Assembly: GCF_002095475.1 (NCBI RefSeq)
Contig: NZ_MLFR01000003.1
Location: 1-64,000, forward strand
Direction of reading: 5' to 3'
Source: Pantoea rwandensis
GTDB taxonomy: Bacteria > Pseudomonadota > Gammaproteobacteria > Enterobacterales > Enterobacteriaceae
Length of the DNA stretch: 64,000 bases
Made by a program: the position numbers and the translations under genes. The notes under the pieces are model-generated. The model was not told where the DNA came from, did not search any database, and was given only the letters and a program-made list of their open reading frames with translations. Below are positions 60,980-64,000 of this stretch, one piece after another. Numbering within the stretch: position 1 is the stretch's first letter; each line of letters opens with the position of its first letter.

Positions 60980-61164
60980 TAAGAATTTATAAAATCTTTT
61001 AGATAAAGATATGCCGGTGAAATAAGGCATAGGGCCTCGCTCAGCCTTATCCCGGCAGATGACATTTACCGCCTGTGCGGTTTTACCTTCAATATCCTTG
61101 CCCTGCATTTGTAGCGGCGTGCTTCGTCACGCCTGAACTACAAACACGATTACGGAGAAACACC

Positions 61165-62457
61165 ATGGATCTCTCTGCTGTTCAGGCCAAACCGACACGG
61201 CGTCGTTATATTACGCTGTTGATGATCTTTATTACGGTGGTGATTTGCTATGTCGACCGCGCTAATTTAGCGGTGGCCTCTGCCCATATTCAGGAAGAGT
61301 TCGGTATCAGCAAAGCTGAGATGGGATACGTCTTCTCTGCCTTTGCCTGGTTATATACCCTGTGTCAGATCCCCGGTGGCTGGTTCCTCGATCGCGTCGG
61401 TTCCCGCCTGACCTATTTTATTGCCATCTTCGGTTGGTCAGTTGCCACCTTATTCCAGGGTTTTGCCAGCGGACTATTATCGCTGATTGGTTTGCGTGCC
61501 ATCACCGGCATCTTTGAAGCGCCCGCGTTCCCGACCAACAATCGCTTGGTCACCAGCTGGTTCCCCGAGCAGGAGCGCGCCTCCGCCGTCGGCTTTTACA
61601 CCTCCGGTCAGTTTGTCGGCCTCGCTTTTCTCACGCCGTTGCTGATCTGGATTCAGGAACTGCTGAGCTGGCACTGGGTGTTCATCATCACAGGCGCTAT
61701 CGGCATCATCTGGTCGCTGGTGTGGATCAAGTTCTATCAGGCGCCAAGCCAGAGCAAAGGCATCAACCAGGCGGAACTGGACTATATCCGTGAAGGTGGA
61801 GCGATGGTCGACGGCGATGCGCCGTCGGCGAAAAAAACGCGCACCAAACTCACTGCTGCGGACTGGAAACTGGTGTTCCATCGCAAGCTGTGCGGCGTAT
61901 ACCTTGGGCAATTCGCGGTTACCTCCACGCTGTGGTTCTTCCTGACCTGGTTCCCGAACTACCTGACACAGGAAAAACACATCTCTGCGCTCACGGCCGG
62001 TTTTATGACGACCGTGCCGTTCCTGGCCGCCTTCTTTGGCGTGATTCTTTCTGGCATCGTGGCCGATCGTCTGGTGCGCAGCGGGCGTTCCCTTGGTTTT
62101 GCGCGTAAAACGCCAATTATCTGCGGATTGCTGATCTCTACCTGCATCATGGGGGCCAACTACACCAACGATCCGGTATGGATTATGACGCTGATGGCCA
62201 TCGCATTCTTCGGCAACGGTTTTGCCTCCATCACCTGGTCGCTGGTTTCCTCACTGGCACCGGTGCGTTTGATTGGATTGACCGGTGGGATGTTCAACTT
62301 TATCGGAGGTTTGGGCGGTATTACTGTGCCGCTGGTGGTGGGCTATCTGGCGCAGGATTATGGCTTTGCCCCGGCTCTGGTGTATATCTCTGCCGTGGCG
62401 TTGGTCGGTGCGCTGTCGTATATCCTATTGGTCGGGGATGTAAAACGCGTGGGGTGA
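61165..62457 (+). CDS. dgoT: D-galactonate transporter DgoT
   Basis: MFS proton:D-galactonate symporter (ACS family). Nearly identical to E. coli Dgo[53 protein letters not shown] 61165 with TACGGAG upstream gives 430 aa, the E. coli length; the in-frame start at 61075 is upstream noise. Last dgo gene, separated from dgoD by an ERIC element. Confidence 0.97.
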
Positions 62458-62501
62458 TTGCCAAACCACATGGGTTATTTGCAGGGTCGCCATTTATGGC
62501 G

Positions 62502-62865
62502 TAATGCTTGTCAGTTAAGCATTAGGTGATAACGCAGTCTGGTGCCGCTCTGGGGCTGGCTGCCCTCGCGCCGCTGACGCGGTACCTTCACTTCACTCGT
62601 CCGCCTGACGGACCGGCGCAGACGGGACTTTCCCTGTCCCGGCTGCACCTTTCGCCAGCATCCATGCTGGCTCTCCTGGCTTCCTCATTCTGTTCAGCGC
62701 TGCGAAATGCCAGCCCCAGAGCGGCACCAGCCTGCTTGCTGACATCTGTTTACGCTTTTGGAAAGGGCGAGATGTTTCAGGAGGTAGCATTTTTACTGCT
62801 ATAAAGGGCGCCATTTTAAGAAAATGACAGCCTCACCTGAAGAGCCCCTTAACTGACAAGCATTA
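62502..62865. mobile_element. 364-bp MITE with IS4-like terminal inverted repeats
   Basis: Bounded by perfect 18-bp inverted repeats TAATGCTTGTCAGTTAAG (62502-62519) and its complement (62848-62865), close in form to IS4 ends. Flanked on both sides by the 14-bp direct repeat CGCCATTTATGGCG (62488-62501 and 62866-62879), the length class of IS4 target duplications. The inside has no recognisable transposase; short reading frames there look fortuitous. The target is itself a REP-like palindrome. It lies in the dgoT-yidR gap (504 nt), which otherwise shows nothing but the yidR leader. Confidence 0.85.
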
Positions 62866-62961
62866 CGCCATTTATGGCGGCCATTGTGAATGGCAAACTT
62901 GCTGCACCCCCTCTCAAAATCGCGTAATTTGTTCGGCAACTGTTGGATGTAAGGTTGCCTC

Positions 62962-64000
62962 ATGTCAGAAAAACAACTCACTTTTGCACAGCGTCACCAT
63001 CAACTCACCAATATCAACGTCTGGACCGCCGACAGCCAGTGGCTGGCGTTTGATGTTCGCCCGTCGGGGGCTTCTTTTACCAGCTTAACCATCGAGCGCG
63101 TCAACGTGGCAAGCGGTGTGGTCGAAGTGCTGTATCAGGCTCGCGATGGCGCGCACGTTGGTGTTGTCACCGTGAGTCCAGACCTGCCGCCGCGCTATGT
63201 GTGTATTCATGGCCCCGAACATCCCGATGCGCACTGGCACTACGATTTTCATCATCGCCGTGGCGTGATCGTGCAGCAGAGCCATGCCGAGAATCTCGAC
63301 GCCTGTGACATCACCGCGCCCTACACGGCGGGTGCTTTACGCGGCGGTTCACATGTTCACGTCTTCAGCCCCGACGGATCGCGCCTCAGCTTTACCTATA
63401 ATGATCATGTGATGCATGAGAAAGATGTGCATGACGATCTTCGCAACGTGGGTGTGGCCGTACCGCTGCATCCGGTGTGCCCGCCTAAGCAGCATCCGCG
63501 TGAATATGATGGCAGCCATTACTGTGTGCTGGTGAGTCAGACCACGCGCGATCCACAGCCGGGCAGCGATCAGATTGACCGTGCCTACGAGGAGTGCTGG
63601 ATTGGCGATCGTGGTTATCAGAAACCGGATGGCAGCTGGCAGCGTTGGGCGCTGGCCTTTATTGGCGATACGCGCGCCGCGAACGGTGACAAAGTCCCCG
63701 AAGTGTTTGTGGTGGATCTGCCAGAGGCAACTGGTGATTACGCGAAAGCGGGCGCATCACCGCTACAGGGCACAGCGGATAAATTGCCTGCGCCGCCGGC
63801 CGGTGTGAAGCAGCGTCGCGTCACGCACAGCAAAGGGTTGGCTTTGCAGCCACGACATTGGCTGCGCGCCGCACCAGACGGCAGCGCCATCGCTTTTCTG
63901 CTGGCCGACGATCAGGGTGTCGTGCAGCTGTGGAGCGTTTCGCCAAACGGCGGCGTACCGCGTCAGATTACCCAGCTCAGCAGCAGTATTCAGTCGGCCT
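62962..64000 (+). CDS. yidR: DUF3748 beta-propeller protein YidR (partial, runs off the window)
   Basis: Open frame of 346 codons from ATG 62962 (MSEKQLTFAQRHHQLTNINV) to the window edge without a stop; E. coli YidR is about 415 aa. Repeating blade-like elements (WLAFDVRPSG, GSHVHVFSPDGSRLSFTYND, HWLRAAPDGSAIAFLLADD) indicate a TolB/WD40-like propeller. No signal peptide is visible. AAGG lies 8 nt upstream of the start. Function unknown. It follows dgoT and the MITE on the same strand. Confidence 0.85.
   Translation, partial: MSEKQLTFAQRHHQLTNINVWTADSQWLAFDVRPSGASFTSLTIERVNVASGVVEVLYQARDGAHVGVVTVSPDLPPRYVCIHGPEHPDAHWHYDFHHRRGVIVQQSHAENLDACDITAPYTAGALRGGSHVHVFSPDGSRLSFTYNDHVMHEKDVHDDLRNVGVAVPLHPVCPPKQHPREYDGSHYCVLVSQTTRDPQPGSDQIDRAYEECWIGDRGYQKPDGSWQRWALAFIGDTRAANGDKVPEVFVVDLPEATGDYAKAGASPLQGTADKLPAPPAGVKQRRVTHSKGLALQPRHWLRAAPDGSAIAFLLADDQGVVQLWSVSPNGGVPRQITQLSSSIQSA

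Follow-up and report, generated by a model that had tools for sequence, protein, structure and literature searches.

Between an MFS transporter gene and a DUF3748 gene, the window analysed here (a 64-kb stretch of Pantoea DNA) carries a short unit framed by direct and inverted repeats, and the locus raises the question of how this unit arrived, what moved it and what it carries. A preliminary description of the same DNA had reported perfect 18-bp inverted ends, an exact 14-bp direct repeat on both sides, a length of 364 bp and no internal transposase, and had read the whole as a non-autonomous element of IS4 type lying in a palindrome. Each of these features was verified. The ends TAATGCTTGTCAGTTAAG are identical over all 18 bp, the two copies of the 14-bp target-site duplication (TSD) CGCCATTTATGGCG show no mismatch, and the element measures 364 bp end to end, with a longest internal ORF of 92 aa and none of transposase size (Table 1). 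Allowing up to 3 mismatches, the 18-mer end occurs at 2 sites in the 64-kb window against 0.05 expected. The element begins 44 bp beyond the end of the MFS transporter gene. The window derives from a draft assembly of 5.78 Mb in 69 contigs, which we label G000; other G- and L-numbers denote genomes and loci. We read the unit as a MITE of the IS4 subgroup that inserts at hairpin apices and carries TwoAYGGAY RNA modules as cargo, and we give this reading as a whole a probability of about 0.8.

Table 1 Features of the element and its neighbours, with positions in the 64-kb window.
Feature	Position	Strand	Remark
Upstream gene, MFS transporter (PF07690)	61075..62457	+	True start may be further in
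Left target duplication CGCCATTTATGGCG, palindrome, 14 bp	62488..62501		Also single at the same gap in relatives
Non-autonomous element, 364 bp, block A only	62502..62865		Probable deletion derivative
Left terminal inverted repeat TAATGCTTGTCAGTTAAG	62502..62519	+	Identical to IS right end in L055
Block A closing stem, left arm, 27 nt	62534..62560		96% complementary to right arm; covarying helix 1
TwoAYGGAY-like RNA module (RF01731)	62603..62678	-	42.9 bits against a gathering score of 43
Block A hairpin H2, AGGGA in loop region	62624..62640	-	
Block A hairpin H1, GCCAGC-AUGGAU-GCUGGC	62654..62671	-	GGA in 34/34 non-redundant copies
Block A closing stem, right arm	62709..62735		
Right-end hairpin remnant	62803..62833		From alignment with L085
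Right terminal inverted repeat	62848..62865	-	
Right target duplication CGCCATTTATGGCG	62866..62879		
Downstream gene, DUF3748 protein (PF12566)	62962..64000	+	Continues beyond the window

A search for the 364-bp sequence, as the preliminary description had proposed, revealed a repeated element. G000 contains 82 match pieces; at 23 places, some of them at contig ends, the match has an E-value below 1e-58. Matches are present in at least 33 of 61 Pantoea genomes. All 44 plasmid records with matches belong to Pantoea. Among 198 sampled genomes of the family 13 had a match, and in only two of these (G000 itself and G011, of the same genus) did it extend beyond short pieces of 23-73 bp. No match came from a search of 20,395 E. 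coli records. We assembled 111 loci, comprising 80 regions hand-picked from the matches listed in favour of an intact left end and 31 other loci; L017 and L026 denote a single place, and L001 and L085 represent the same insertion. Both ends were found, with at most 4 mismatches each, in 58 loci, hereafter the two-ended copies. The remaining 53 lack two recognisable ends, which we attribute to decay, to truncation or to the ends of contigs; to this extent the internal sequence does occur without its inverted ends, an observation that the preliminary description had set against its own interpretation. In G000 both ends are kept at 6 of 30 loci, with a TSD at 3 of those 6, and most local copies are therefore old, truncated or cut by contig ends. 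Most two-ended copies are of a longer form of 507-618 bp, and 14 of the 58 are short and, judged by length, contain block A only.

The gap between the MFS and DUF3748 genes was compared in 21 readable relatives without the element (L109, where the downstream match is absent, stands outside this count). Four of them (G058, G057, G023 and G074) have one uninterrupted GGTCGCCATTTATGGCGACC there, three (G004, G051 and G001) have variants of it, and the other 14 have no such palindrome. When the window flanks were joined, the palindrome was collinear in all three aligned cases (G058, G023 and G074). Since the intergenic sequence around it has diverged, the single palindrome in relatives is likely, but not proven, to be the exact empty site. 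No clean empty site was seen in a close strain, and the window's nearest relative also carries the element. In the sister species G052 the same insertion, with the same TSD, is occupied by a copy of 618 bp; the window copy is probably an internal-deletion derivative, in which case the insertion is older than the split of the two species. Alignment with L085 places the missing 254 bp (block B and an A-run) beside the right-end hairpin remnant, where they adjoin short AAAGG repeats. The element accordingly has the properties of a MITE, namely no transposase, several copies and, in 4 of the 21 readable relatives, a site with one target copy. At G000:C50:20557-20753, G000:C52:16636-16754 and L029 we also observed tandem repeats of the element's left arm (matches of 31-37 bp at a spacing of about 33-61 bp), so some copies grow head-to-tail arrays.

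A full IS4-family element with the same ends, which the preliminary description had suggested looking for, was found in other Pantoea species and is absent from the source assembly. In G006, G021 and G064 we identified an IS4-subgroup IS of 1.42 kb whose right end is the identical 18-mer, which bears out the earlier view that the ends are IS4-like. It is 1419 bp long in G006, where the same 18-bp right end is accompanied by the TSD CGCGATTTATCGCG, is present as eight copies of 1421 bp in G064, and as one copy with a split ORF in G021. The transposase matches NF033592 at 292.8 bits, contains PF13006 and PF01609, and has a YREK motif at Y330 and DDE spacings of 76 and 104, in agreement with the subgroup patterns Y(2)R(3)E(6)K and D(60-110)D(100-150)E. 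The subgroup table of De Palmenaer et al. 2008 (PMC2266710) gives the end signature -AATR--------WTW and direct repeats of 10-13 bp; the size and end signature of the IS agree with that table, and the ends of the element match the signature. The 14-bp TSDs of the window copy and of the G006 IS are 1 bp over the published range.

The element therefore resembles the IS4 subgroup (archetype: E. coli IS4) in its end signature, in its duplications of 9-14 bp as compared with 10-13 bp, and in having a 1.42-kb relative with YREK and DDE motifs, but differs in that it has no transposase of its own and shares with the IS only about 18-23 bp at the ends, the interiors having nothing significant in common. 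We regard its assignment as a MITE of the IS4 subgroup as supported. Transposase matches occur in 12 of the 61 Pantoea genomes, many as fragments only. G000 yielded 0 Nterm_IS4 matches and 0 matches to the related IS transposase, and an autonomous partner with the same ends was not found there. Mobility and targeting of the element are well supported, and its mobilisation would have occurred in trans; because the helper is absent from its own assembly, its present mobility in this genome is putative.

Target choice was analysed on the two-ended copies. A TSD (score of at least 7) flanks 35 of the 58, compared with 54 of 3306 mispaired flank controls; perfect TSDs of at least 9 bp are found in 22, and a clear TSD is absent in 23. 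TSD lengths range from 9 to 14 bp, with 12 and 14 the commonest. Palindromic positions make up 64% of the TSDs versus 25% of flanking sequence, and 16 of 35 TSDs are at least 80% palindromic versus 54 of 8302 controls. An A-run is located to the left in 20/35 and a T-run to the right in 20/35, against 4.9% in the control, with at least one run in 25 of the 35 rejoined sites and both in 15. The rejoined target often has the order A-run, stem, T-run, as in AAAAAAGGG-CGACTTGCGTCG-CCCTTTTTT. By longest-ORF calls, a gene 3' end faces the element in all 58 two-ended copies, on both sides in 33, and no copy lies between two 5' ends.

The related IS has the same habit. All 10 full-length IS copies examined occupy hairpin-forming sites, with TSDs of 10-14 bp that are partly to fully palindromic, and nine of the ten sites are terminator-like as judged by eye. 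E. coli IS4, about 66% identical to the Pantoea IS over 59%, was found at eight loci representing five distinct sites; three of the five are terminator-like by eye, beside zapB, glgP and bamD (at bamD the two TSD copies differ at one position), one copy is inside a gene, and one shared site was met four times. IS4 has also been reported in the pheST attenuator. It is well supported that the targets are hairpin sites generally, very often intrinsic terminators, and that this preference is shared with the related IS.

The preliminary description had assigned the target palindrome in the window to a dispersed REP-like family and had proposed it as a preferred landing site. The family assignment is borne out: the palindrome GTCGCCATNNATGGCGAC has 108 genome sites with at most 1 mismatch, while the reversed-pattern control has 0. 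Eleven TSDs are 14 bp long, and 8 of these are REP-like palindromes such as CGCNATTTATNGCG. The landing-site proposal agrees with the palindromic TSDs, but it had missed the wider target class, intrinsic terminators. With a palindrome so common, and with the surroundings of the empty palindromes diverged, the apparent TSD might be explained as two REP-like palindromes that happen to stand beside an old palindromic repeat, transposition being absent. We consider this very improbable: four species have one palindrome at the same gap, the other TSDs mostly differ (33 distinct sequences among 35) and many are inside terminators, and an identical end is present on an IS. These observations, namely several TSD-flanked copies and an IS in congeners with the same end and target habit, uphold insertion of a non-autonomous IS4-type element into a palindrome.

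REP and REPIN sequences are moved by RAYT, the REP-associated tyrosine transposase, without a TSD, and the 9-14 bp TSDs together with the IS4-type ends set the element apart from them. Dispersed palindromes are known as insertion sites of REP-targeting ISs, including the IS4-family ISRm22 (Tobes and Pareja 2006, PMC1525189); what differs here is that intrinsic terminators are hit more often and that the habit is shared by a MITE. IS1272 likewise uses inverted repeats as targets, but is described as replacing the inverted repeat without a TSD (PMC5678879), whereas the hairpin apex is duplicated here.

A hairpin with a T-run for leftward reading is present at the right end of 39 of the 58 two-ended copies, compared with 38 of 580 shuffles. 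The window copy fails this terminator test; in L085, scanned once on its own, 1 terminator was detected where 0.8 would be expected. A second short element was noticed at L044, L045 and L054 of the source genome, with the IS4-like ends TAATGCTTGTCACTTAAG / TAATGCCGCTCACTTAAG and REP-like palindromes inside; L044 and L045 are flanked by near-identical palindromic 14-mers. An element of this kind may have dispersed the palindrome into which the window element is inserted.

The cargo is not IS debris. It is made up of the Rfam RNA family TwoAYGGAY, present once or as two copies that point in opposite directions, which the preliminary description had overlooked. Block A is on the minus strand; longer copies have a second, similar module, block B, on the plus strand, which the window copy does not have. 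The window module scores 0.1 bits below the RF01731 cut-off, and G000 as a whole contains 23 matches to this family, 16 of them over the cut-off. The alignments comprised 34 non-redundant modules out of 97 for A and 14 out of 52 for B. Paired cells amount to 97.8% in A and 96.6% in B, with 14 and 12 pairs, respectively, changed on both sides, and the covariation score was reached by 0 of 500 shuffles in either block, nor did sliding the register attain it. Further pair types were less remarkable in number, since 59/500 shuffles in A and 2/500 in B had as many, and the relatedness of copies weakens such covariation counts. Two hairpins with AYGGAY-type loops and covariation, the hallmarks of the family, are thus present, with many loops reading ARGGAN or AGGAC instead of a strict AYGGAY. 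The loop GGA is found in 34/34 (H1) and 28/34 (H2) of A and in 14/14 (H1) and 13/14 (H2) of B, and the overall number of GGA per module does not exceed that in shuffles (5.8 versus 6.4 and 4.9 versus 5.3). The modules share two tandem GGA-loop hairpins with published TwoAYGGAY (Weinberg 2010, PMC2864571; Gardner and Eldai 2014, PMC4333381) but are here the cargo of a multi-copy mobile element, which is not stated in the relevant portions of those papers.

The cargo might instead act as DNA, a long palindromic spacer aiding transposition or chromosome structure, its likeness to TwoAYGGAY reflecting shared palindrome descent. Consistent with this, both blocks are closed by stems that form long inverted repeats, the module of the window copy lies antisense to the MFS gene, and a promoter scan of the window copy and L085 was negative; counts of G-U versus A-C, taken over the pairs that both strands are predicted to form, do not separate the strands (7 to 4 and 4 to 4). 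However, apical GGA loops are kept while the stems vary, and in both blocks the TwoAYGGAY strand has a lower consensus energy than the other (-67.6 versus -56.8 and -109.7 versus -99.4), as it does per sequence in 26/34 A and 14/14 B. A CsrB-like motif, moreover, is almost exclusively on that strand, and we consider a role as DNA unlikely. Counts of G-U versus A-C on predicted pairs (134 to 7 and 79 to 4) were discarded as biased by one-strand folding, and were not used because pairs predicted for both strands show nothing.

Returning to the RNA reading, the loops suggest a partner. The repeat consensus of CsrB is CAGGAHG. CsrB itself was found in the source genome (197.8 bits), where it holds CAUGGAUG and CCUGGAUG stretches resembling the loops of blocks A and B. 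The looser motif CA(N)GGAHG, picked after the loops had been seen, occurs 1.68 times per A copy versus 0.23 when shuffled and 0.03 antisense, and 1.07 times per B copy versus 0.15 when shuffled. It is present on the sense strand of 34/34 A and 12/14 B modules and on the other strand of 1/34 and 0/14. In B, the strict form CAGGAHG shows no enrichment (0.07 versus 0.09), and the stricter WCANGGANGW occurs in 18/34 A and 0/14 B. TwoAYGGAY was proposed as a CsrA-binding sRNA, without validation there, by Gardner and Eldai 2014 (PMC4333381). Binding of CsrA by the modules described here is a tentative prediction from motif and fold, which we place somewhat below even odds.

Compared with CsrA sponges of the CsrB/CsrC type, the modules also present GGA in hairpin loops but have few of them, show no visible promoter and are dispersed by transposition. 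The 5'tnpA RNA of IS200 is another mobile-element RNA with GGA sites named as CsrA candidates, but it belongs to the transposase mRNA (PMC12594629, in the part concerned). Neither this element nor any MITE with CsrA-type sites is described in the portions of the literature covered by our search, which does not prove absence; a MITE review (PMC10969869) has no mention of CsrA, IS4 or Pantoea, and a P. ananatis sRNA paper (PMC6749038) none of TwoAYGGAY, CsrA or CsrB.

In the mechanism we propose, the transposase of a hairpin-targeting IS4-subgroup IS, as present in other Pantoea species, would recognise the 18-bp ends in trans, and the element would enter a palindrome at its midpoint, where the 9-14 bp spanning the hairpin apex would be duplicated. 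As the targets are intrinsic terminators and the dispersed REP-like palindrome, copies sit at gene 3' ends. The split terminator would often be compensated, for leftward transcription, by the right-end hairpin with its T-run. Rightward read-through would produce B in the sense orientation, and leftward read-through, if it passed the right-end hairpin, would do so for A. A neighbouring gene read through the split terminator would then acquire a GGA-loop module in its 3' UTR, and this module could bind CsrA. Both genes next to the window copy lie on the plus strand. As this copy has lost block B and its block A would be antisense to the upstream MFS gene, we expect it to be inert as RNA; no sigma-70-type promoter was found by the scan in the window copy or L085, and its surviving module is probably silent.

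Insertion at the apex of a terminator hairpin would allow spread with little damage while altering 3' UTRs. The element links an orphan RNA family with transposition and points to a concrete candidate partner for it, CsrA, and if the predicted binding is true, transposition would be a route to rewiring a global regulon. A bolder version holds that a selfish mini-transposon scatters CsrA decoys, breaking terminators and putting modules into 3' UTRs (A in one direction, B in the other). The level of free CsrA would thereby shift and many genes would be rewired at once, and TwoAYGGAY would be chiefly a mobile-element RNA. We consider this distinctly unlikely.

Alternatively, the element may be a plain selfish MITE, its RNA modules hitch-hiking without host-relevant activity. 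The proportion of copies without both ends (53/111), the short A-only forms (14/58 two-ended copies, by length) and the patchy presence (at least 33/61 genomes) would all be expected of such an element, but covariation and loop conservation extend across species, and TwoAYGGAY is also found in other families of the order, often in several copies. A purely selfish element is thus a possibility that we hold clearly short of an even chance. At the level of the order, 75 of 247 genomes (55 over the cut-off) and 20 of 87 genera had RF01731 matches, often several per genome among the matches listed, and with inverted pairs too; going by these matches, TwoAYGGAY may in many cases belong to dispersed repeats across the order. 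In other families of the order, at L162 and L165, inverted TwoAYGGAY-bearing repeats flank ORFs, which could be the cargo of a larger mobile unit; one such ORF, at L162, is of 590 aa, has a P-loop-like stretch and follows an rplI-like ORF (names assigned by eye). At L168, in the genome of another family, a TwoAYGGAY pair near 720-1570 lies between two similar terminator-like hairpins, an arrangement that recalls the targeting observed in Pantoea.
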